The notes under the pieces are model-generated. The model worked only from the letters and a program-made list of their open reading frames with translations, had not been told where the DNA came from and made no database searches. A stretch of 64,000 nucleotides of DNA from Acidobacteriota bacterium. GTDB lineage: Bacteria; Acidobacteriota; Terriglobia; Bryobacterales; Bryobacteraceae. Below are positions 18,634 to 59,947 of this stretch, piece after piece. Numbering within the stretch: the stretch's first letter is position 1; every line of letters begins with the position of its first letter. The translations under genes and the position numbers were made by a program. Location of the stretch: positions 1 through 64,000 of the forward strand of contig JAFKEE010000025.1 of assembly GCA_017307505.1 (NCBI GenBank). The letters run 5' to 3'.

Positions 18634-18718
18634 GCGGACGTGGCGGAACTGGCAGACGCACTGGATTTAGGTTCCAGCGGGGAAACCCATGGGAGTTCGA
18701 CCCTCCCCGTCCGCACCA
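18634..18718 (+). tRNA. tRNA-Leu (anticodon UAG)
   Basis: An 85-nt cloverleaf with encoded CCA. The acceptor stem is GCGGACG/CGTCCGC; the D-arm starts TGGCGGAACTGG. The anticodon stem CTGGA/TCCAG encloses loop TTTAGGT, so the anticodon is TAG. A long class-II variable arm is present, and the T-arm is GGGAG-TTCGACC-CTCCC. The variable arm and the anticodon agree on leucine. It lies between the hypothetical gene and the sulfatase. Confidence 0.96.
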
Positions 18719-18840
18719 CTCAATCCACTCTTTGCTCTTGCAAGCAGGCGCGGTGTGCCAGCGCAGGCTTGGGGTCCGTCAAGCCCACAGGCAGTGCTTC
18801 CCTCCGAAAGCCCCGGTTCGGATCGTGTAGCCTATCTACC

Positions 18841-20199
18841 ATGAACCGGCGGGAATTCCTTTCCACCAGCGCGGCGCAGGCCCTGGCCCCAAAGCGGCGG
18901 CCCAACGTCCTCTACCTCCATTCTCACGACACCGGCCGCTATATCCAGCCCTACGGCCATGCCGTCCCCACGCCCAATCTGCAGAAGTTCGCCGGGCAGG
19001 GCGTGCTGTTCCGCCGAGCGTACAGCGGCGCCCCCACCTGCAGTCCCAGCCGCGCGGCGCTGCTTACGGGGCAGACCGCCCATGGCAGCGGCATGCTGGG
19101 CCTGGCGCACCGCGGCTTCAGCCTGAGCCACCCCGAGCGTCACCTGGCGAACTTCCTGCAATCGCACGGCTACGACACGACGCTCTGCAACGTCCAGCAC
19201 GAGACGAAGGCCGGCACCATTCCGTCGCTCGGCTACCAGCGCGTGCTGAAGACCGCCAGCAATCGCGGGCCGGACGCCGCCGCGGCCGCGGTGGAGTATC
19301 TGAACTCCAAGCCCAAGGCTCCGTTCTTCCTCTCCTGTGGCTTCTTCGAGACGCACCGGGAGTACCCGGTGGCCGGTCCGAAAGAGGATCCTCGCTACAC
19401 GCTGCCACCCGCGCCATTGCCGGATACGCCTGCGGTGCGGCAGGACATGGCCAACTTCAAGGCGGCGGCGCGCGTGCTCGACGACTCCATGGGCTCCATC
19501 CTGGAAGCGCTGGCCCGCAATGGCCTGGAGGAGAACACGCTGGTCGTGCTCACCACTGATCACGGCATCGCGTTCCCAGCCATGAAGTGCAATCTCACCG
19601 ACCACGGCATCGGCGTGATGCTGATGATGCGCGGCCCGGGCGGCTTCCTGGGTGGCAAGGTTTCTGACGCCATGGTTTCTCACCTCGACGTCTATCCCAC
19701 CCTTTGCGAGACCCTGGAACTCCCGAAACCGGCCTGGTTGGAGGGCCGCCCGCTCACGCCGCTGGTAAAGGGCTCCGCCACGAGCATTCGCGACGAGGTC
19801 TTCGCCGAAGTCTCCTATCACGCGGCCTACGAACCGAAACGGGCGCTGCGCACGGAGCGCTACAAGTACATCCGCAACTTCGGCGACCGGGCCCTGCCGG
19901 TGCTACCCAACTGCGACGACGGGCTGAGCAAATCGTACTGGCTGGAGCAGGGTTGGAAGCAGCGGCCGGTTCCGCGGGAGGAACTCTACGATCTCGTCTT
20001 CGACCCGAACGAAGCCAACAACCTGGCGACCCGCCGCGAGCCGCCGGCCGAACTGGACCAACTCAGAGGCCGGCTGGACCGCTGGATGAAGGAGACGGAC
20101 GATCCACTGCTGCGTGGTCCCGTACCCGCTCCGCGCGGTGCGCAGGTGAACGATCCGGCAGGACTCTCGCCCCGGGAGCCAGTGACCGTTGTGCCGTGA
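18841..20199 (+). CDS. Exported sulfatase (arylsulfatase/heparan-sulfatase-like)
   Basis: 452 residues from the ATG at 18841. The upstream extension in frame reads through the tRNA and was rejected. 'NRREFLSTSAAQALA' is a short Tat-type leader. The sulfatase signature is 'PTCSPSRAALLTG' (residues 66-78): Cys67 in C-x-P-S-R is the residue that would become formylglycine. Metal and sulfate ligands lie in 'VLYLHSHDTGRY' and 'TTDHGIAFPAMKCNLTDHG'. 'EELYDLVFDPNEANNLA' is the usual C-terminal sulfatase motif. It would cleave sulfate esters outside the cytoplasm. The maturase that makes formylglycine is not in this window. Confidence 0.92.
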   Translation: MNRREFLSTSAAQALAPKRRPNVLYLHSHDTGRYIQPYGHAVPTPNLQKFAGQGVLFRRAYSGAPTCSPSRAALLTGQTAHGSGMLGLAHRGFSLSHPERHLANFLQSHGYDTTLCNVQHETKAGTIPSLGYQRVLKTASNRGPDAAAAAVEYLNSKPKAPFFLSCGFFETHREYPVAGPKEDPRYTLPPAPLPDTPAVRQDMANFKAAARVLDDSMGSILEALARNGLEENTLVVLTTDHGIAFPAMKCNLTDHGIGVMLMMRGPGGFLGGKVSDAMVSHLDVYPTLCETLELPKPAWLEGRPLTPLVKGSATSIRDEVFAEVSYHAAYEPKRALRTERYKYIRNFGDRALPVLPNCDDGLSKSYWLEQGWKQRPVPREELYDLVFDPNEANNLATRREPPAELDQLRGRLDRWMKETDDPLLRGPVPAPRGAQVNDPAGLSPREPVTVVP

Positions 20200-20320: not shown

Positions 20321-21262
20321 ATGTTCAATTGCGACCTGAGGGTCGACATTACGCTGTCGGAGAAAGCCGCCAACGGGCGCAGCCAGGCTTTCAAGGCAGT
20401 GGTCAAAATCCGGCTGATGCAGGGCGAGGGCGACGGAGGGAAGTGGGCTCATAGGGACACCCGCGACTTCCGCCTGCCGTCCGGCGGAAACTTCGTGGTC
20501 CTGCCGACGGGCATCCTGCTCAAAGACGGCGGGGGCTGCTTTGCGCTGCTGCTGGGGCTGGGCGTGCCGCCGTCCGTCGGTGCGCGAGGGGACCTGAAAG
20601 TCTATACGCCGGGCCAGCGGGACTACAATTCTCCGAACGTCCAGTGGCGCGGGAACGGCAAGTGGGAAGTCCTGGCGAAGCAGGCCAACCTGCCGTTGAA
20701 GGAATCAGCCACCACCTGGGGCAACTTCAAGAAGAACATGAGCAAATACGGCCGGGGCCTGGGCTGGGAGCTGTGTTCGTCAAGCGGGCAGTCCTTCTCG
20801 GCGGGCGCCGGCGGCCGCGGCTTCGAGATCTCGCTCATGGGCCGCCTGTACATGAAGCCGGTGGGCGACGAGAAGGGCAGGAAGATGGTCGTCTACAGCT
20901 ACAACGGCGGGGGTGTCGGCGCCATGCTGCCCGGGTTCTCGGGCGCCGGCTCCACCTCGGATTTTCCCAACGTCGGGACAGAACTCACGCAGGGCAACCT
21001 GCCGCTGAACGAGCCGCTGCGGCCCGAGGAGCTCAGCGGCACGTGCCAGGTGGTCTCGCTGTCGGCCGGCGGCATCGGCGGCCTGGGCGGCGGCTTTGGA
21101 GCCGCATTGACGGCCCAGGGCGTCATCTTCGGAGTGCCCGCAGGACTCGCAGTAGGCGCGTTCAAGGCCTGCGCCTGGATCGCCGGACCCGCGGCCCTGG
21201 TCGGCAAGACCGGCGGCAGCGCGGGGGCGGTGCTCCAGATCGGCTACCTGTCCCTGCTTTAG
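20321..21262 (+). CDS. Orphan protein with hydrophobic Gly-rich C-terminus
   Basis: 313 residues, preceded by a strong GGAGGAGG. I recognise no family. There is no signal peptide. Residues 1-230 look globular and rich in Gly and Lys ('KNMSKYGRGLGWEL', 'GRGFEISLMGRLYM'). The last ~75 residues are Gly/Ala-rich and hydrophobic ('LSAGGIGGLGGGFGAALTA', 'GVIFGVPAGLAVGAFKACAW'), a profile seen in membrane-inserting or amyloid-like segments. It stands alone: the sulfatase is 121 bases upstream, and its stop overlaps the stop of the convergent RND-OMF gene by 4 bases. Confidence 0.6.
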   Translation: MFNCDLRVDITLSEKAANGRSQAFKAVVKIRLMQGEGDGGKWAHRDTRDFRLPSGGNFVVLPTGILLKDGGGCFALLLGLGVPPSVGARGDLKVYTPGQRDYNSPNVQWRGNGKWEVLAKQANLPLKESATTWGNFKKNMSKYGRGLGWELCSSSGQSFSAGAGGRGFEISLMGRLYMKPVGDEKGRKMVVYSYNGGGVGAMLPGFSGAGSTSDFPNVGTELTQGNLPLNEPLRPEELSGTCQVVSLSAGGIGGLGGGFGAALTAQGVIFGVPAGLAVGAFKACAWIAGPAALVGKTGGSAGAVLQIGYLSLL

Positions 21263-24200
21263 CGGCCCAGAGTGCGCTCCAACTCGGCTACGGCGAGTTG
21301 CAGGCCCAGCCGCGCTTCCATCAGTTGCGACTCGGCTTCGGCCAGGGCGGCATCGGCCTGCCTGCCGGCCAGCGCCGTGGTCAGGCCAAGTTCGACCTGA
21401 TCCCCGCCAATGCGGCGCGCCTCGCGGCGGACGGCTACAGCCTTCTCCGCCACCTGCACCAGGTCCTGGAGCCGCTCCACCTTGCGGCGGGCCTTCTCCA
21501 CATCAATGGCGATACGGTTGCGCAGCCGGGCCGCGTTCAGTTCGGCCTGCTGCAGCAGCGTCTGGCGCTCGCCCACAACAGCCGCACGTTTGCCGCCGTC
21601 GAAGACGCTCCAGCTCATCCGAGCCCCCACCGCCGCGTTGTTGGTGGGCAGGAAGGGGACCCCGTTCTGGAACGTGTGCATCCCGAAGAGGCTGATGTCG
21701 GGAATGAACTCGGCCTTGGCGGCCGCCACCGCGTGACGGGCCTTGGTGACCGTCTCTTCCGCTTCGCGCACCTCGGGATTGGCACCGGCTGCCTGGCTCG
21801 TCAGCGTCGCCAGCGGAGCCAGGTCGACCACTGGCGCCTGCGGCGGGACGAGCTCCAGTTCAGAGTTCAGGGGCAGGCCCAGCAGGTCGTTCAGCTCGGT
21901 CCGGAGGTCCGCCACCTGGAGTTCCGCGTTCAAGACGGCGTTCTTCTGCTGGAGCAGCAATGCCTCGGATTCGAGCGCCTTCACCTCCAGGGCAGCGCCG
22001 GTCTCCACGGCGTCGCGAGCCTCTTTCCGGCCCTCCTCTGCCGCCGCCACGCGCGCCTTGGCCGCCGCGATGCGGTGCTCCAGGATCAGGATCCCGAAGT
22101 AGGCTTCGCGCGTCTTGAGCGCGATTTCGTTACCGGCCTGACGCTGGCGCTGCTCGGCGATGCGGATGTCCTGGTCGGCCACGTGGGTGCCCGCGCGGAT
22201 CTTCACCAGTTGCGTCAGCGGCTGGCCCACGGTGGTCATCATCAGACCCAGGGTGTTGTCGCCCTGGAACAGCTTCAGATCGGCCGGCGGCAGGGCGCCC
22301 ACACCCGGGATCGCGCCCAGAAACCCGGCGGGAATCGCCAGATTCTGCAGACCGCTGGTGTAGACGATGCTCGATTCGTTCGACAGGACCGGCAGGTAGT
22401 TCGCGCGGACCTGGTCGCGCTTCTTCTCACTCTCCTTCACTTTCAACTGCGCCAGTTTGACCATCGCGTTCTGCGTACGGGCCAGGGACACGGCTTCGTC
22501 CAGGGTGATCCTGCGCGGCTCGGCGCGCAAGGAACCCGCGCCCAATAGGCACAGCACCAGCAGGGCCGCCACAGGCGAGCGGCCCGCACTGCGGCGTTCA
22601 CACACGACATACAGCACCGGCACGACACCCAGCGTGAAGAACATCGAACAGATCAGGCCGATGGCAATGACGCTGGCCAGAGGGGACCACAGACTCGAGC
22701 CCGAGAGGATCATCGGAGTTACGCCGACCGCAGCGGCAGCGGTGGTCAGGAAGATGGGCCGGAGCCTGCGTTCGCCGGCCTCCAATGCGGCCGCTTCCAA
22801 CTCGACGCCGGCATGGCGGCGCTCGTTGATGTACTCCACCAGGATGATCGCGTTCCGCACCACCACGCCTGACAGGCTGATCACGCCCATGAACGCGGTG
22901 AAGCTGAACGGATTCCCGGTGAGCAGCAGGCCGAGTACCGCACCCGGCATAGCCAGCGGGATCGACATCATGATCACCAGCGTCTGCACCGGCGACCGGA
23001 ACTGGAACAGCAGGATCAGAAAGATCGCGACAATGCTCAGCGCCATGACCAGCTTCATCTCGCCGAAGGTCGTCTCCTGGCCTTCGATTTCGCCGCCGTA
23101 ATCGATGCGGTAGCCGGGCGGCATCGGCATGGCCGCCAGCTTCGGCCGCGCCTGTTTCAGGATTGCGGACGGCAGATGATTCTCCCCGGAGAGCGCCATG
23201 GCCGTGAGCGTGCGCACTCCGTTGCGGTGCAGGATGCGGTTCGCGCGCCACTCGGGCTTCAGCGTCGCCACACTGCGCAAGGGTACGCGCGCCCCGGTGA
23301 GGGAGCTCACCACGTAGACATCCGAGACATCCTCAAACCGCTGCCGGTAGGACTCATCCAGGCGCAGGACGACGGGCACGTCGCGGTCGCCCTCCCAGAA
23401 CGTGGTCACCGGCATCCCGCTGAACGCTCCGGCGAGTTGCATGGCGATGCTGGCATTGCTCAGGCCAAGCCGGTTGGCCACTTCCTCATCCACATGGACG
23501 CCCAGGTCGTAAGCGTCTTCATGGAAATCGTCGTAGACATATTCCGCCCCGGGCGACTCGCGCAGAATCGCCTGTGCCCGGGCCGAGATCGCCTTCAGCC
23601 GTTGCAGATCCTCGCTGCCGTCGTCGGAGCTGACGATCCGCACCTCCACCGGCGCCTGCATGGCGGTGCCCTGCTCCAGTTCCCGTACCAGAATCCGCGC
23701 CTCGGGCGCCACCCTGGCCAGTTCTCTGCGCAGCCGGAAGACGAGCGAGGGCGTCTCCTCCGCGGTCTTCGTATTGACGAGGACTTGAGCATAGTTCGAG
23801 GCGGTAAACTCAGGCGCCACGTTGTAGTAGAAGCGTGGAGCCGATTCTCCGACGAAGGTCGAATAGTTCTCGACCAGCGAGTTCGCTTTGAGATGGACCT
23901 CGATGCGGTGGACGGCCGCATCGGTCGCCTCCAGGCGCGCGCCCTCCGGCAGCCAGATGTGGATCACAAATTGGGCGCGCTCCGCCGTGGGAAAGAAGCG
24001 CTCCGGCACCACCGTACCCAGCAGCACAACCGACACAACAAACGCCGCCACGCCGCCGGCCAGCGTCAGCGCCTTGTGCCGCATACCGAGCACAATGCCC
24101 TTGTTGTAGAGCCGCTGCATTGCATCCAGCAGGTGAAAGCCGTGCTTCTTCTCCCCCTCCGGATCGTGCAGTCCCTTCTTGATGAAGAACTGGCACAGCC

Positions 24201-25653
24201 AGGGCGTCAGCAGCATGGCCACAATGAACGAGCACGTGAGTGCGACGGCGACGGCGATGGGCAGCGCGCGGATGAACTCGCCCACCGCGCCGCTGATCAT
24301 CAACATGGGCAGGAAGGCCGCGATGATCGTCGCCGTGGCGGTCAGCACCGGTACGACGAGTTCGGTGGCGCAACGGGCGGCCGCCTCTGACCGGGACACG
24401 CCGCGATCCAGCAGCTCCACATAGTTGTCGGCGATCACGATGGCGTCATCCACCACCATGCCCAGCACGACGATCAGGGCCGCGATGGAAACCTGGTGCA
24501 GTTCCACACCAATCATGTCCATCACGCCGAAGGTCGCGGCCACGGTGACAGGGATCGCCAGCGAAGCAATCAATGCCACCCGGAACGGCAGCAGCAGGAT
24601 CGTCACCAGGATGACAGACCCGATAGCGATGCCGAATTCGCGGATGAAATGGCTGATGCGCTCTTCCACCACACGCGGCTGATCGGCCACGATATCGACC
24701 TTCAGGTCCGGCGGCAGCGTCGCCTTCACGCGCTCCAGCTTGCCGCGCAACTCGTTGCCGAAGTCCACGATATTGTTGCCCTCCAGCATCTCCACCGAGA
24801 TCATCAGCGCGCGCTCGCCGTCGAAGCGGCACAAAGTGCGCGGATCCCCTTCCACCCGGTTCACATCGGCCAGGTCGCCCAGGTAGACGGGCTGACCCGT
24901 AGGCGACATGTCGATCATCAGCCGCCGGATCTCATCCTCGGTCTGGAAGAGCCCCGTCGCTTTCAGCGGCACGTCGCTCTCCGGAGTCTTGAAGTTTCCG
25001 CCCGACTGCACCACGTTGCGGCCGCGCAGCGCCTGGATCACCTTCAGCGGAGAGAGCGTATACTGTGAGACCCGCTCCGTCGAACTCGTGATGCGGATCT
25101 CTTCCTTCTGCTCGCCCACGCGCGACAGTTTGGCCACGGAGCGCGTCGTGCGGAACTCATCCTCGATATGCCCGGCGTAGTCTTTCAATTGCTGGTAGTT
25201 GTAGCCGCCGCCGTGCAAGGCCAGCAGCAGAGCCACCGTGTCGCCGTAATCGTCGCGTACGATGGGCCCCTGCACGCCCTCCGGCAGCTGCGACAGCTTC
25301 AGCTCGATCATGGCGTGGCGCAGCTTCGACCAGAAAACATCCGGCTGGCGGACATGATCCTCGAGTTCGACATTGATCACGCTCACACCGTTGCGGCTGG
25401 TCGACCAGGTCTTGCCCTTGCGCACCTCCTCGTAGCGGAACAGGCGGTCTTCCAGCTTGCGCGTCACCTGCTTTTCCACCTGCTCGGCCGTGGCTCCGGG
25501 ATAGAGCGCAATCACCAGCCCGGTGCGGATGGTGATCTTCGGATCCTCGCGCCGGGGCATGGTTGTCAGGGCGTAAATGCCGCTCAGGAACACCGCCGCC
25601 GTCAGTAGCAGCGTCACCTGCGGATAGTGGAGGGAGGCTTTGACGGGGTTCAT
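21259..25653 (-). CDS. RND efflux permease fused in frame to a TolC-like outer-membrane factor
   Basis: 1464 residues in one uninterrupted frame. Residues 1-1021 are an RND permease: first helix 'TLLLTAAVFLSGIYALT', the proton-relay Asp pair in 'LGMVVDDAIVIADNYVELLD', docking domains, and the last helix 'LICSMFFTLGVVPVLYVVC'. Residues 1027-1044 then read exactly like a signal peptide ('PVAALLVLCLLGAGSLRA' before 'EPRR'). They are followed by ~420 residues of TolC-type outer-membrane factor ('RITLDEAVSLARTQNAMVKL', 'TKARHAVAAAKAEFIPDISL', 'VGARMSWSVFDGGKRA'). The start overlaps the adaptor gene stop (ATGA). A GTG at 22605 could restart translation ahead of the signal-like segment. These proteins normally come from two genes. 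Confidence 0.88.
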   Translation of the reverse strand: MNPVKASLHYPQVTLLLTAAVFLSGIYALTTMPRREDPKITIRTGLVIALYPGATAEQVEKQVTRKLEDRLFRYEEVRKGKTWSTSRNGVSVINVELEDHVRQPDVFWSKLRHAMIELKLSQLPEGVQGPIVRDDYGDTVALLLALHGGGYNYQQLKDYAGHIEDEFRTTRSVAKLSRVGEQKEEIRITSSTERVSQYTLSPLKVIQALRGRNVVQSGGNFKTPESDVPLKATGLFQTEDEIRRLMIDMSPTGQPVYLGDLADVNRVEGDPRTLCRFDGERALMISVEMLEGNNIVDFGNELRGKLERVKATLPPDLKVDIVADQPRVVEERISHFIREFGIAIGSVILVTILLLPFRVALIASLAIPVTVAATFGVMDMIGVELHQVSIAALIVVLGMVVDDAIVIADNYVELLDRGVSRSEAAARCATELVVPVLTATATIIAAFLPMLMISGAVGEFIRALPIAVAVALTCSFIVAMLLTPWLCQFFIKKGLHDPEGEKKHGFHLLDAMQRLYNKGIVLGMRHKALTLAGGVAAFVVSVVLLGTVVPERFFPTAERAQFVIHIWLPEGARLEATDAAVHRIEVHLKANSLVENYSTFVGESAPRFYYNVAPEFTASNYAQVLVNTKTAEETPSLVFRLRRELARVAPEARILVRELEQGTAMQAPVEVRIVSSDDGSEDLQRLKAISARAQAILRESPGAEYVYDDFHEDAYDLGVHVDEEVANRLGLSNASIAMQLAGAFSGMPVTTFWEGDRDVPVVLRLDESYRQRFEDVSDVYVVSSLTGARVPLRSVATLKPEWRANRILHRNGVRTLTAMALSGENHLPSAILKQARPKLAAMPMPPGYRIDYGGEIEGQETTFGEMKLVMALSIVAIFLILLFQFRSPVQTLVIMMSIPLAMPGAVLGLLLTGNPFSFTAFMGVISLSGVVVRNAIILVEYINERRHAGVELEAAALEAGERRLRPIFLTTAAAAVGVTPMILSGSSLWSPLASVIAIGLICSMFFTLGVVPVLYVVCERRSAGRSPVAALLVLCLLGAGSLRAEPRRITLDEAVSLARTQNAMVKLAQLKVKESEKKRDQVRANYLPVLSNESSIVYTSGLQNLAIPAGFLGAIPGVGALPPADLKLFQGDNTLGLMMTTVGQPLTQLVKIRAGTHVADQDIRIAEQRQRQAGNEIALKTREAYFGILILEHRIAAAKARVAAAEEGRKEARDAVETGAALEVKALESEALLLQQKNAVLNAELQVADLRTELNDLLGLPLNSELELVPPQAPVVDLAPLATLTSQAAGANPEVREAEETVTKARHAVAAAKAEFIPDISLFGMHTFQNGVPFLPTNNAAVGARMSWSVFDGGKRAAVVGERQTLLQQAELNAARLRNRIAIDVEKARRKVERLQDLVQVAEKAVAVRREARRIGGDQVELGLTTALAGRQADAALAEAESQLMEARLGLQLAVAELERTLGR

Positions 25654-26855
25654 TGGGCGGCTCCCGTCAACTGCACCAGCCCGCCCTCGCGCACGTTCTG
25701 CTGGCCGGCCACGACGATCAGGTCTGAGGCCGTAATCCCGCTGGTGATCTCGATCTCCGCATTCACCGCCCGCCCCACCTGCACGCGCCGCGCGAAGACA
25801 CGCTGCTTCTCGGGGTAGTAGACATAGACCAGCGTCGCGCCCTGCGGATCGCGGACTATCGCCTCGCCCGGCACCGTGATCACCTGCTCCCGGCTGCCGC
25901 CTTCGATCTCCGCCTCGGCGATCATGCCCGCGCGCAGCACCAGCCTGGGATTCGGCACCAGGATCCGGACGGCGAACGTGCGCGACTGCGGCTCGGCCGC
26001 AAACCCGACCAGTTCCACCTTGCCTGGAAAGTCCTGGCCGCCCATGGAGGGGATGCGGACCACGGCCGGACGGCCCGGCTGCACCTTGGCGATCTCGGCC
26101 TCGGGCACACCCACGCGGACGCGCACGGGATGCAGGTCCATCACGGCGAAGACCGGCATGCCGGCCGCCACCATCTCGCCCGGATCCGTCAGCCGCCGCG
26201 CCACCACGCCGGTCAGCGGAGCCGTCAGCCGGGTGTCCGCCACCCGCTTGGCATTCAGCTTCACATTCGCCTGCGCCTGCCGGGCTTTGCCTTCCGCGGC
26301 CGAGCGGTCCTCCACCCGGGCGCCTTCCTTCGCCTCGTCCAGCCGCTGCTGCGCCACTTTCCACTGGGCTTCGATCTTCTTGAAATCGTTCGGCGCCAGG
26401 CTGTGCCGCTCATACAGCGTTTTCATGCGCCTGTATTCGTCATCCGCCTGTTCGAAGGCGGCGCGCGCCTGTTCCAGTTCCTGCTTGCGGGTCCCGGAGT
26501 TCGCCTTGGCGGCCATGGCCGCGGCCGCCTCCGATTCGCCGGAAGCGATGTCCATCCCAAACTGGTAGTCTCGCGGATCGAGTTCGGCCAGAATCTGCCC
26601 GCGCTGCACGGGCTGGCCTTCCTCCACGAAAACGCGCGCGACCCGCCCGGCAAGCTGGAACCCGATTTCAGCGGACTCGCGAGCCTCCACCGTGCCGCCC
26701 GCCCGGATGGCGGATTGCCGGTCGACGCTGGCCGGCTTGCGCACCCGCACCGGCACAGCCGTCTCCCTGGCCGCGACAGGCGCTTTGGATCCGCAGCCCG
26801 AACTCAAACCGGCGGCCGCCAGGAGAGAGACGGTCCACAAGGACTTGGAAAACAT
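25650..26855 (-). CDS. RND efflux periplasmic adaptor lipoprotein (HlyD/AcrA type)
   Basis: 401 residues. Residues 1-21 are a lipoprotein signal with lipobox 'LSSGC' (Cys21). The adaptor order is visible: half-lipoyl ('VEARESAEIGFQLAGRVARV'), coiled-coil hairpin (about 100-215, Ala/Glu/Gln-rich), second lipoyl half ('RLTAPLTGVVARRLTDPGEM'), and the beta-barrel plus membrane-proximal domain ('VITVPGEAIVRDPQG'). It would bridge the RND permease and the outer-membrane factor, both coded by the next frame, which it overlaps by 4 bases. Its ribosome binding site lies inside a long inverted repeat, so expression may be controlled there. Confidence 0.94.
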   Translation of the reverse strand: MFSKSLWTVSLLAAAGLSSGCGSKAPVAARETAVPVRVRKPASVDRQSAIRAGGTVEARESAEIGFQLAGRVARVFVEEGQPVQRGQILAELDPRDYQFGMDIASGESEAAAAMAAKANSGTRKQELEQARAAFEQADDEYRRMKTLYERHSLAPNDFKKIEAQWKVAQQRLDEAKEGARVEDRSAAEGKARQAQANVKLNAKRVADTRLTAPLTGVVARRLTDPGEMVAAGMPVFAVMDLHPVRVRVGVPEAEIAKVQPGRPAVVRIPSMGGQDFPGKVELVGFAAEPQSRTFAVRILVPNPRLVLRAGMIAEAEIEGGSREQVITVPGEAIVRDPQGATLVYVYYPEKQRVFARRVQVGRAVNAEIEITSGITASDLIVVAGQQNVREGGLVQLTGAAQ

Positions 26856-55092: not shown

Positions 55093-55614
55093 GTGATTCG
55101 AGCGACAAAGAAGGATCTGGCCCGGTCAAGGGTCCTGCGGGACTCCCTTGGTGCCCTCGGCTATCCCGGCTTCGTAAACCTGTTCACCGAGATGGAAGCC
55201 GAGTTCGAACACGATCCGGCCGTGGTCTTAATTGCCGCCCTTTCCTGTGAAAATCTCGACGATCGCGTGGTCGAGGCGCTGCCCTGGCTCATCCTTCGTT
55301 ACAACGATCTCGACTGGGACTGGATCAAAAAGGAAGCCCGCCAGCGCCAGGCCCAGAATCGCCTGGGCTTCATCGTCAGCCTCGCCCTGCGAGTGGGCGC
55401 TTCCACCTACGGCAACACCGAGAAACTTCTGAAGCTGTCGGCGATCGAAGAGGATCTCTTCGAGTACCGCCTGGACAAAGAGGACACTCTCTGCCGCAAA
55501 CTCCCGCAGGGAGAAAGGCAGTGGATCCGCGAAGCCCGCTCCACCGAAGCGCGCCAGTGGAACCTTCTCACCGACCTCCGGGCCCAGGACCTCAGCTACA
55601 ACGGCGACATCTAG
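55093..55614 (+). CDS. Hypothetical helical protein
   Basis: 173 residues from the GTG at 55093. I recognise no family. It is largely helical and charged ('KKDLARSRVLRDSLGALGYP', 'LPWLILRYNDLDWDWIKKEA', 'NRLGFIVSLALRVGASTYGN', 'LLKLSAIEEDLFEYRLDKED'), with no signal peptide or membrane helix. The ribosome binding site is odd: GGAGGA lies at 55087-55092, immediately before the GTG, with no spacer. The frame is open far upstream, but that part is antisense to modB and Arg/His-rich. Its stop overlaps the stop of the RND gene by 4 bases. A divergent partner of modB. Confidence 0.65.
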   Translation: MIRATKKDLARSRVLRDSLGALGYPGFVNLFTEMEAEFEHDPAVVLIAALSCENLDDRVVEALPWLILRYNDLDWDWIKKEARQRQAQNRLGFIVSLALRVGASTYGNTEKLLKLSAIEEDLFEYRLDKEDTLCRKLPQGERQWIREARSTEARQWNLLTDLRAQDLSYNGDI

Positions 55615-58600
55615 TCCGCCGCGGCCCCAGCCAGGTTCCCCGTCGCCACCGAACCTCTCCGCTGGAACCTCGTCTGCAATCCCGCCAGGTACGTATACAC
55701 CACCGGAGTCAGATACAGCGTCACCACCTGTGAGAACACCAGCCCGCCCACCACGCACAACCCCAGCGGCCGCCGGGCCTCTCCGCCCGCGCCATACCCA
55801 AACGCGATCGGCAGCGCGCCAAGCAACGCAGCCATGGTCGTCATCATGATGGGCCGGAACCGCACAAGACATCCCTCATAGATCGCCTCCAACGGAGCCT
55901 TCCCGTGATGCCGCTCCGCTTCCAGCGCGAAGTCGATCTGCATAATCGCGTTCTTCTTCACGATGCCAATCAGCAGGATCAGCCCCACATACGAGTAAAT
56001 GTTCAAGTCCAGCTTGAACAACCACAGCGTCAGCAGCGCGCCAAAACCCGCCGACGGCAGCCCCGACAGAATCGTCAGCGGATGGATGAAGCTCTCATAC
56101 AGCACGCCCAGCACGATGTACACCACCACCACGGCCAGCAGCAGCAGGATGCCCAGATTCTTCATCGACTTCTGGAACGCCTGCGCCGTGCCCTGGAAGA
56201 TGGTCGTAATCGTCGCCGGCAAATGAGTCCGCGACAGCTCCTCGATCTGATCCACCGCATTGCCCAGCGACATCCCCGGCCGCAGATTAAAGGACACCGT
56301 CACCGCCGGCAACTGCCCGTAGTGATTGATCGTTTGCGGACCCGCGGAAGGCTCCAGGCGAGCCAGCGAGTCCAGCGGCACCAGTTCGCCTTTGCCCGAC
56401 TTTACATAGAGACGCGACATCAGCGACGGATCCGACTGATAAGCCCGGTCGACCTCCATCAGCACCCGGTACTGATTGTTCGGCGCGTAGATCGTTGAGA
56501 CCCAGCGCGGCCCGTACGCGTTGAACAGGGCGGTCTCGATCTGCTCCGGAGTCACATCGAACTTGGCCGCCCGGTCGCGCTCGATCTTCACCGTCATCTG
56601 CGGACTGCGAATCTGCAGGTCGCTCGTCACATCCATCAGCGCCGGCAGCTTCGCCACTTCCTTTTCGAAGGACTGGCTGCTCTTATAGAGCTCTTCAATA
56701 TTGGTGCCCAGCAGCGTGAACTGGTACAGGCTCTTCGACAGCGTGCCACCCACACGAATCACCGGCGGGTTCTGCAGAAACACCCGCATGCCGGTCATAT
56801 TGTTCAGGCGCGGCCGGAACGAGTCCATCAACTGATCGGCGCTCAACTGGCGTTCGTGGCGCGGCTTCAGGTGCATGAACATGCGCCCGAAATTCGGCCC
56901 GCCCAGGCTGATGTTGGCGCTGCCGCCGCCCACGCTCGACATGAACGACTCAACATTGGGATCGTTCCGCACGATCTCGGCCAGCTTCTTCTGCGTCTCC
57001 ATCATCTCCAGGTGCGAAGCACCCTGCGCCGCCTCGGTGATCGCCAGGATCTGGCCTGTGTCTTCACTCGGGATGAAGCCCTTGGGCACCTGCACAAACA
57101 GCCACCCGGTGGCGATGAGAATCACGAACGAGAACGCCAGCGTCAGCGCACGCCGCCGCAGCGTCCATTGCAGGCTCACGTCATAGACATGCAGCATCCA
57201 GTCGAAGAAGCGCTCTGTCGTCCTGTAAAACCAGCCTTCCTCCCCCTGACGGTGAGGGCGCAGGAACCGGCTGCAAAGCATGGGCGTCAGAGTAACCGAC
57301 ACAATGCCGGAAATGAGGATCGCCACCACGATCGTCACGGAAAACTCACGGAACAACCGGCCCAGGATGCCGCCCATGAACAGCAGCGGGATGAACACGG
57401 CCGCCAGGGAGATGGTCATCGAGACAATCGTGAAACCCACCTCGCGCGAGCCCTTCAACGCCGCTTCCATCGGCCCGTCGCCGTCTTCCATGTGGCGCAC
57501 GATGTTCTCGAGCATCACGATCGCGTCATCCACCACAAATCCGATCGCCAGAATGAGCGCCATCAAAGAGAGGTTGTCCAGACTGTACCCGCACAGGTAC
57601 ATCACGGAAAACGTTCCGATCAGCGAGAACGGCAGCGCCAGGCTTGGGATCACGGTTGCCGATAGCTTTCGCAGGAACAGGAAGATCACCATCACCACCA
57701 GCGCCAGCGTCAGCGCCATGGTGAACTGGATATCCACAAACGACTCGCGAATCGTGTCGGAGCGGTCGTAGAGAACATCCAGCATCGCCGCCGGCGGCAG
57801 TTGGGCACGGAACGAAGGCAGCAGTTCCCTGACGGAGTTCGCCACCTCCATCGCGTTCGTACCCGGCTGGCGCTGCACAGCCAGCACAATTGCCCGGTTG
57901 CTCTTCTCGTGCGTATTGAACCAGGACGCAATCTTGTCTTCCTCGACACTGTCGAAGACGGTCGCCAGCTCTTCCAGCCGCACGGGAGCGCCGTTCTTAT
58001 AGGCCACCACCAGCGGCTTGTAGGCCTCGGCCGAGGTCAACTGCCCCGTCGCCTGCACGGTGAGCATGCGATCCGGACCGTACAGCGTGCCGGTCGGCAG
58101 GTTGACGTTATGGCGCCGGATGGCGGCCTCCACTTCGTCGATCCCGATGCCTCGCCCGTTCATCTCGCGCGGGTTCACCTGCACCCGCACGGCATACTTC
58201 TGCGAACCAAACACCTGCACCTGGGCCACGCCGCTCACCATCGAGATGCGCTGGGCCATCATGGTGTCGGCGAACTCGTTCATCTGGTACAGCGGCATCG
58301 ACTTCGAGCTCAACGCCAGGAAGATCACCGGCTGGTCGGCGGGATTCACCTTGCGGAACGTCGGCGGCGTCGGCATGCCGGCCGGCAGCAGCGGAGCCGC
58401 CTGGGCAATCGCCGCCTGCACGTCCTGCGCCGCTCCATCCAGTTCCCGGCTGAGATCGAATTGCAGTGTCACGCTGGTGACGCCCAGCGAGTTCGACGAC
58501 GTCATCGAATCCAGGCCGGCAATGGTCGAGAACTGCCGTTCCAGCGGGGTCGCCACGGCCGACGCCATCGTCTCCGGATTCGCGCCGGGCAGGCTCGCGC

Positions 58601-58742
58601 TCACCATCAGCGTGGGGAAGTCGACATTCGGCAGATCGCTCACCGGCAGTGCCTGGTAGGCCACCGAGCCGAACAGGGCGATCGCCAGCATCAGCAGCGT
58701 CGTGGCGACGGGCCGGCGGATGAAGATCTCTGAGAAGTTCAT
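55611..58742 (-). CDS. RND efflux permease (HAE-1/Mdt type)
   Basis: 1043 residues. 'EIFIRRPVATTLLMLAIALF' is the canonical N-terminus of AcrB/MdtB-type pumps. The proton-relay Asp pair lies in 'GFVVDDAIVMLENIVRHMED', and the helix-10 Lys in 'GLILLIGIVKKNAIMQIDFA'. Large periplasmic docking and porter domains lie between. The last helices end 'YLTPVVYTYLAGLQTR'. It would export drugs or secondary metabolites with the adaptor coded just upstream, which its start overlaps by 4 bases. No outer-membrane factor is attached here, unlike the first RND gene. Confidence 0.95.
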   Translation of the reverse strand: MNFSEIFIRRPVATTLLMLAIALFGSVAYQALPVSDLPNVDFPTLMVSASLPGANPETMASAVATPLERQFSTIAGLDSMTSSNSLGVTSVTLQFDLSRELDGAAQDVQAAIAQAAPLLPAGMPTPPTFRKVNPADQPVIFLALSSKSMPLYQMNEFADTMMAQRISMVSGVAQVQVFGSQKYAVRVQVNPREMNGRGIGIDEVEAAIRRHNVNLPTGTLYGPDRMLTVQATGQLTSAEAYKPLVVAYKNGAPVRLEELATVFDSVEEDKIASWFNTHEKSNRAIVLAVQRQPGTNAMEVANSVRELLPSFRAQLPPAAMLDVLYDRSDTIRESFVDIQFTMALTLALVVMVIFLFLRKLSATVIPSLALPFSLIGTFSVMYLCGYSLDNLSLMALILAIGFVVDDAIVMLENIVRHMEDGDGPMEAALKGSREVGFTIVSMTISLAAVFIPLLFMGGILGRLFREFSVTIVVAILISGIVSVTLTPMLCSRFLRPHRQGEEGWFYRTTERFFDWMLHVYDVSLQWTLRRRALTLAFSFVILIATGWLFVQVPKGFIPSEDTGQILAITEAAQGASHLEMMETQKKLAEIVRNDPNVESFMSSVGGGSANISLGGPNFGRMFMHLKPRHERQLSADQLMDSFRPRLNNMTGMRVFLQNPPVIRVGGTLSKSLYQFTLLGTNIEELYKSSQSFEKEVAKLPALMDVTSDLQIRSPQMTVKIERDRAAKFDVTPEQIETALFNAYGPRWVSTIYAPNNQYRVLMEVDRAYQSDPSLMSRLYVKSGKGELVPLDSLARLEPSAGPQTINHYGQLPAVTVSFNLRPGMSLGNAVDQIEELSRTHLPATITTIFQGTAQAFQKSMKNLGILLLLAVVVVYIVLGVLYESFIHPLTILSGLPSAGFGALLTLWLFKLDLNIYSYVGLILLIGIVKKNAIMQIDFALEAERHHGKAPLEAIYEGCLVRFRPIMMTTMAALLGALPIAFGYGAGGEARRPLGLCVVGGLVFSQVVTLYLTPVVYTYLAGLQTRFQRRGSVATGNLAGAAAD

Positions 58743-59947
58743 GACAGCAGCCTCACTTTCGAGCCCGACGTCAACCGCAACTGCCCTTCCGTCACCACCT
58801 TCTCGCCGGCCTGCACCCCGCTCTCCAGCGCCACCAGATCGCCGCTGCGGGCGCCCACCTTCACATTCCGGCTTTCCACCGTGCCGTCGTCTTTCATGAC
58901 ATACACGAAGTCACCAGACTGGCCGGTCTGCAGGCTCTTCGACGGCACCACAACGGCGTTCGGCGTTTCGGCCAGCCGCAGGGTCACATCCAGGATCTGA
59001 CCTGGCCAGAACTTCGCTGTGCTGTTTGTGAACTTCGCCTTCAGCTTCAAGGTGCCCGTCGCCTCATCGACCGTATTCTCGATGAACGCCAGAGTGCCTT
59101 CGGCCGACGTCTCCTTCGAGCCCTGCTCCGCGGCTTTCACCAGCAACTGGCCGCCGCCCATCCTGGATCGCAGATTGCTCACGTGCTTCTCGGCGATGGC
59201 GAAGGTCACATAAACCGGTTGAATCTGGCGGATCGTCACCAGTTCCACATCCGTGGCCTTCACCAGGTTTCCCTGCTTGACGAGAATGCTGCCCGTCCGG
59301 CCATCGATCGGCGACTTGATACTGCAATACGCCAGGTCGAGCTTCGCACGGTCGAGCGCCGCCTGGTCGGCCCGCAGCGTGGCGTTGATGCTCTCCAGAG
59401 TGGCCAGGTCGGCCCGAACCGCCTCCTGCCGCGCCGACGCTTCGGTCCGCGTCTGGTCGGCCTGCTCCTTCGAGAACACGCCTTCCTTGGCCAGCTCCTC
59501 ATACCTCCTGGCCTGCGCCTCGTAATATTTGTGCTGCGCCTGATCCTTGGCCAGCGTCGCCTCGGTCTGCTTCAGAACGGCCTGGTCCCGCGCAAGGGTC
59601 GCTTCCGCCTGCCGCACGGCCTGCTCGAACGGACGGGTGTCGATCTGAAACAGCAGTTGTCCGGACCTGACCGCATCGCCCTCGGTGAAGTGGACTTTGT
59701 TCAGGACCCCGCCCACCTGAGACTTCACCGTGATTGTGCTGAAGGCCTCGACACTGCCGATGGTCCGCAGTTCCACGGGCATACTCTGGACGACCGCCGC
59801 GGCCACGCGCACCGGCGCGGCCGGAGCCGACGCGGCCGCCGCCGGTGTCGCACTCTTCGCCGAGCATCCGGCCAGCGCGAGTCCGGCTGCTCCCAAAATC
59901 AGATAGAGCCCGGCCCCAGGGCCGCACGAGGTGTGTTTCCGTTGCAT
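58739..59947 (-). CDS. RND efflux adaptor lipoprotein (MFP)
   Basis: 402 residues from the ATG at 59947, GAGAGG 7 bases upstream. Lipobox 'LALAGC' puts Cys28 at the lipid site. 'RTIGSVEAFSTITVKSQVGG' and 'VLNKVHFTEGDAVRSGQLLF' form the biotinyl/lipoyl half. A long coiled coil (about 105-205) contains 'LARDQAVLKQTEATLAKDQA'. 'LAYCSIKSPIDGRTGSILVK' closes the lipoyl domain, and the beta-barrel follows ('GQILDVTLRLAETPNAVVVP'). It is the partner of the RND permease that overlaps its stop. Confidence 0.95.
   Translation of the reverse strand: MQRKHTSCGPGAGLYLILGAAGLALAGCSAKSATPAAAASAPAAPVRVAAAVVQSMPVELRTIGSVEAFSTITVKSQVGGVLNKVHFTEGDAVRSGQLLFQIDTRPFEQAVRQAEATLARDQAVLKQTEATLAKDQAQHKYYEAQARRYEELAKEGVFSKEQADQTRTEASARQEAVRADLATLESINATLRADQAALDRAKLDLAYCSIKSPIDGRTGSILVKQGNLVKATDVELVTIRQIQPVYVTFAIAEKHVSNLRSRMGGGQLLVKAAEQGSKETSAEGTLAFIENTVDEATGTLKLKAKFTNSTAKFWPGQILDVTLRLAETPNAVVVPSKSLQTGQSGDFVYVMKDDGTVESRNVKVGARSGDLVALESGVQAGEKVVTEGQLRLTSGSKVRLLS

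Follow-up and report, generated by a model that had tools for sequence, protein, structure and literature searches.

How can an inner-membrane permease and an outer-membrane channel be encoded in a single reading frame? The question is raised by a locus in a 64,000-nucleotide stretch of DNA from an Acidobacteriota bacterium (contig JAFKEE010000025.1, positions 1 to 64,000; hereafter the window). There, the ORF 25653–21259 on the minus strand comprises, in order, an RND permease, a signal-peptide-like segment and a complete TolC/OprM-type outer-membrane factor (OMF). A first-pass annotation of the sequence had reported this arrangement, and the 1464-codon translation is indeed free of stops and contains both ACR_tran and OEP in Pfam. 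The features of the locus are as follows.

25650..26855, minus strand: periplasmic adaptor ORF (membrane fusion protein, TIGR01730/HlyD_D23), 401 aa, from profile matches
21259..25653, minus strand: RND-OMF fused ORF, 1464 aa plus stop, from translation and Pfam
22594..25653, minus strand: RND permease part, residues 1–1020, from Pfam ACR_tran and a match to solved MexK
22603..22605, minus strand: in-frame GTG, codon 1017, a candidate internal start, not conserved
22522..22602, minus strand: internal signal-peptide-like segment, residues 1018–1044 (CERRSAGR, core VAALLVLCLL, putative site SLRA/E, the slash marking the cut)
21262..22521, minus strand: OMF part, residues 1045–1464, from Pfam OEP; the structure model matches OprM, TolC, OprN and CusC folds

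The adaptor, which matches TIGR01730 over 26855–25650 with 207.7 bits (cut-off 94.9), precedes the fused gene, and its stop codon overlaps the ATG of the latter in an ATGA. This ATG is preferred as the start over an upstream GTG because many orthologues begin with MNPV-like residues and because it overlaps the adaptor stop; the 1701-aa ORF that the GTG would give was rejected on the same grounds.

The permease part is full-length by profile comparison, with ACR_tran spanning residues 5–1018 (613.6 bits, profile positions 3–1020 of 1021). Its best match among solved structures is MexK (E = 3e-144), followed by 6vej (5e-132). Two aspartates, D402 and D403, are invariant in a nine-sequence alignment; we take them to be the proton-relay aspartates of TM4, by analogy with D407 and D408 of AcrB. 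The cut-offs of the curated NCBIfam permease subfamilies were not reached, the best being NF033617 with 550.8 bits against 1250, and on these scores the RND part is assigned to the ACR_tran superfamily, outside the curated NF033617 subfamily. Proteins of the RND family have 12 helices and a cytoplasmic C-terminus.

In the OMF part, OEP was recognized in two stretches, the best at residues 1281–1463 (147.4 bits, cut-off 22). A sequence search with this part returned a single solved relative, MtrE (6e-6), and the curated NCBIfam OMF models stayed below their cut-offs (TIGR01844, 80.5 bits against 225.15; TIGR01845, 42.6 against 210.05). Residues 860–1464 were modeled with AlphaFold2 from 44 sequences (mean pLDDT 85.8, pTM 0.61). 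In the model, a linker of low confidence leads from the RND helices to a complete OMF fold, for which Foldseek returned OprM, OprN, TolC and CusC (lowest E value 3.5e-17, for 7akz_A; TMt 0.75 for 1ek9_A). Weaker matches of the same model were to AcrB-type transporters.

Might the open frame be an artifact, with a junction stop deleted by a sequencing or assembly error? Comparison with related genomes, the check proposed in the first-pass annotation, bears on this directly. Among 151 genomes of the source surroundings, 22 contained a match with an E value no higher than 1e-170, giving 23 rows with the window's own included. The genes are fused in 21 of these rows (own row included; G038 and G066 are ended by contig ends) and split in two, G034 and G023, where the OMF lies in a different frame. 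Neither of the outcomes by which the first-pass annotation would have been refuted, a stop at the junction or a split in every close strain, was thus observed. The same open frame is present at 89 and 95% identity in G005 and G006, assemblies of 3 and 2 contigs. A scan of 396 genomes of the phylum gave 27 rows passing 1e-160, of which 12 show the fusion (with the window's own among them, and G436 ended by a contig end) and 14 match the RND part only. In one row, L049 (G521), the frame continues across the junction and meets a stop 57 residues into the OMF, also about 57 after the likely cleavage site, reflecting either decay or a sequence error. A named collection of 80 loci, kept from at least 505 relatives and overlapping the genome-scan rows in some genomes, divides into 40 fused and 40 non-fused. 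Thirty-seven of the latter have a separate OMF ORF, three of these (L121, L132 and L133) appearing frame-broken; of the remaining three, L100 lacks an OMF in the flanking sequence, and two (L114 and L139) are broken off ahead of the junction.

Fused genes were found in Acidobacteriota, Geobacter-type bacteria, Deferribacterota, Krumholzibacteriota and Bacteroidota, with named members in Acidobacteriota, Geobacter, Geomonas, Trichlorobacter, Smithella, Seleniivibrio, Krumholzibacteriia and Flammeovirga, and on plasmid records of Gemmatirosa and Persicobacter. The two split family members and the L049 stop are what an error could appeal to. An error is contradicted by independent genomes in which the junction is likewise open, among them two assembled into 2 and 3 contigs, by open junctions in several phyla, and by the joint divergence of the RND and OMF parts, whose pairwise identities co-vary with r = 0.93 over 1891 pairs. 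Assembly error as the source of the fusion was rejected on its conservation across the family, the phylum and the named loci, and we regard the loss of a junction stop through such an error as scarcely credible. The fused arrangement is real, conserved and recurrent.

The window junction reads C1018-E-R-R-S-A-G-R-S-P-VAALLVLCLLGAGSLRA/E1045, and the whole stretch between ACR_tran and OEP is CERRSAGRSPVAALLVLCLLGAGSLRA/EPRRITLDEAV. The putative signal peptide sits where a separate OMF would begin, as the first-pass annotation had noticed; the residues that it gave, 1027–1044, are the hydrophobic and cleavage parts of the segment. Of 76 fused sequences, 66 entered the junction comparison after removal of those identical to another over one 150-residue stretch; near-copies (for example L043 and L044) were retained. 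A hydrophobic core is present in all 66, with a mean Kyte-Doolittle value of 2.96 and a lowest value of 2.13, a level reached by 0.33% of 3300 equal-length stretches from the OMF parts. The net charge ahead of the core is +1 or more in 63 of 66.

Cleavage sites were chosen by hand-made scoring rules. Under a strict score that rewards E, Q, A or D at +1, 32 of 66 junctions pass, against 15% of shuffles; under a loose threshold, 63 of 66 pass, as do 72% of shuffles. The loose cleavage-site pattern is present in all 66, and Ala stands at -1 in 62 with +1 rewarded and in 59 without (83% in shuffled junctions). Because shuffles pass nearly as often, the Ala and the loose pattern carry little weight, and in some Acidobacteriota the chosen site shifts with the rule.

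The +1 residue is more telling. With +1 unrewarded, E or Q follows the predicted cut in 35 of 66 junctions. Gln occupies this position in all 6 Bacteroidota junctions compared with 11 of 60 others (Fisher p = 1.4e-4, the rows not being independent and 32 genome-scan sequences being counted as Acidobacteriota because the scan covered the window's kin). In Thermodesulfobacteriota, Gln is found in none of 12 junctions and Glu in 8. In Bacteroidetes, signal peptidase I cleavage exposes Gln in most substrates, the Q-rule (PMC5837995). The Gln in Bacteroidota fits this rule and is the best indirect sign, from sequence, that signal peptidase I may use the internal site. The six rows represent about three fused lineages on the tree described below, and their Gln could come from split ancestors, since living split relatives show it too: by the same rule, Q is at +1 in 23 of 33 separate OMFs, which the record titles assign to Bacteroidota with the sole exception of L136 (Opitutaceae). 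The 33 omit L100, L114 and L139, where none was found, as well as L121, L130, L132 and L133. In the junctions of L022 and L077, a lipobox-like LVAC or LIAC is seen by eye within the core, making processing by signal peptidase II an alternative in that clade.

We consider it likely, with good but not full confidence, that the gene product is a polyprotein precursor, made as a single Sec-inserted chain and cut by signal peptidase I, so that the OMF is released. The RND part would be inserted through Sec and leave its C-terminus in the cytoplasm. The next segment, with its short positive stretch, core of about ten residues and small-x-small site, would then insert as a cleavable signal peptide, so that the OMF part emerges in the periplasm. 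The cut, in the window most likely after A1044, would leave the permease with the spent signal peptide as a tail. The freed OMF would move to the outer membrane and join the separately encoded adaptor, RND and OMF presumably having been supplied in equal amounts, the fixed stoichiometry that the first-pass annotation had suggested.

The first-pass annotation had offered two routes to a mature OMF, a thirteenth-helix segment cut by signal peptidase and a second product started at a GTG at 22605. The former gained in likelihood; the latter lost ground as a general route. The GTG is present in frame (22605–22603, minus strand, codon 1017), and a second product initiated there, or at a similar codon near the RND end, could be made beside the long chain. 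In 59 of 66 junctions, some ATG, GTG or TTG lies ahead of the core, and complementarity to the anti-Shine-Dalgarno sequence of -6 kcal/mol or better occurs at 26% of 111 candidates compared with 16% of 6962 internal start-like codons. The same value is reached by 84% of 31 true RND starts (found among 62 sequences), placing the candidates nearer the background. Moreover, 7 of 66 junctions have no ATG, GTG or TTG between TM12 and the core, and the position of the window's GTG holds a GTG in only 8 of 66 junctions and a start codon of any kind in 13, including some fairly distant Acidobacteriota. ATG is present in 16 of 66 junctions compared with 31 of 33 separate OMF genes as their start, the stretches compared differing in length and base make-up, and the GTG share of Val codons at the junctions (48%) is that found overall (47%). 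With no stop in the way, translation would in any case continue into the long chain. Internal initiation appears unlikely, though individual members may use it.

If the segment were instead an uncut thirteenth transmembrane helix, the OMF would be tied to the inner membrane in one covalent pump. Such an architecture would agree with the single chain and with the helix at 1027–1041 in the AlphaFold2 model, which is of low confidence (block means of 53 to 64 for linker and helix). The core is short, though, and the small-x-small site behind it reaches the strict score more often than shuffles do; Gln stands at +1 in all six Bacteroidota. Geometry also speaks against an uncut chain. An extended chain spans about 0.35 nm per residue, and the tether from the core to the first OMF motif has a median of 11 and a maximum of 31 residues (62 sequences), reaching about 4 nm and 11 nm, respectively. 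The dimensions published for MexAB-OprM are an intermembrane distance of 23 nm, an RND periplasmic part of 7 nm and a gap of about 6 nm (PMC4754349); the last two add up to a distance of about 13 nm from the inner membrane to the tip of the OMF. The uncut tether looks too short, and we judge a permanently joined pump to be quite improbable.

An RND tree was built with FastTree from 109 rows, 66 fused and 43 split, with long-branch warnings; L114, L139, L132, L133 and L121 are omitted. Here, L100 is labeled split though its flank has no OMF, and L055–L057, L060 and L064 are labeled split by the RND frame alone. The window's group contains 55 rows, 53 of them fused. The fused/split label changes at least 10 times on the tree, compared with 34 times with shuffled labels, which implies repeated fusion or splitting, in either direction. 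Bacteroidota rows are mostly split, and the fused lineages among them are Persicobacter/Flammeovirga, L094 and L125. Two fused Smithella rows (Thermodesulfobacteriota; L106 and L122) are nested in the Bacteroidota group, a placement that suggests transfer.

The split orthologues are mostly from Bacteroidota (Dyadobacter, Chitinophaga, Hymenobacter, Pedobacter; also Parabacteroides). They share with the fused proteins a related RND and an adjacent OMF with its own signal peptide, ATG being the start in 31 of the 33 scored, and differ in that the RND gene ends at a stop and the OMF gene has a start of its own. In L091, L098 and L099, a single stop is all that interrupts a common frame of RND and OMF; the two genes of Parabacteroides also share a frame and lie 42 bases apart. 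Such close split orthologues are natural controls.

The locus resembles the tripartite RND pumps MexJK, TriABC and AcrAB-TolC in having an adaptor gene beside the permease, an RND closest to MexK and an OMF of the OprM/TolC type. In contrast to these systems, in which the OMF genes are separate, RND and OMF share one frame with a putative internal signal peptide. A precedent for processing is the FbcH cytochrome b/c1 precursor of Bradyrhizobium, which is cut at an internal signal sequence after synthesis. It too starts as a multi-helix inner-membrane protein and continues through an internal signal sequence into a domain that is exported. Unlike FbcH, both products of which stay at the inner membrane, the RND-OMF protein would have to deliver its second product to the outer membrane.

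The first-pass annotation knew these parts only as separate genes, which proved too narrow: fusions are already in public records, one of them annotated "efflux RND transporter permease subunit". This record, Persicobacter psychrovividus WP_338399011.1, is a single RND-OMF protein of 1467 aa, encoded after an adaptor gene. It is about 40% identical, and its name, which covers only the RND permease, hides the channel. The parts are known, and no description of a natural RND-OMF fusion was found in the literature searched, with broad queries covered by their top-ranked matches.

Promiscuous channels such as TolC often serve several RND pumps. If the cleaved polyprotein is correct, a dedicated channel on the same chain would show pairing and equal supply of two proteins that end in different membranes, and the cell would here use signal peptidase to mature a polyprotein, a strategy more familiar in viruses. 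Tentatively, and with rather more doubt than belief, we propose that such proteins form a widespread envelope polyprotein class: the motor for the inner membrane and the channel for the outer membrane would be delivered on one chain, and signal peptidase cleavage would couple their births, providing every pump with a channel of its own. Fusion may have recurred because the OMF signal peptide already fits behind the RND C-terminus.

A second RND-OMF fusion, from another RND branch, is present in the same genome (G000:C32:319385-324166; L033 2386-7167, L147). This 1594-aa protein contains ACR_tran and OEP and has its own signal-peptide-like junction. Its family comprises 23 full-length rows in 101 genomes, 16 open and 7 with one in-frame stop; in L155, the one stop row that was read, the stop is at the junction and is followed by an ATG. 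Within the window, a further RND permease is encoded at 55614–58910 on the minus strand, in a frame of 1099 aa, an ordinary length. At 18634–18718, a tRNA-Leu overlaps the mechanical start of the ORF 18640–20199, which on visual inspection resembles a sulfatase and has its probable start further on, at MNRREF.
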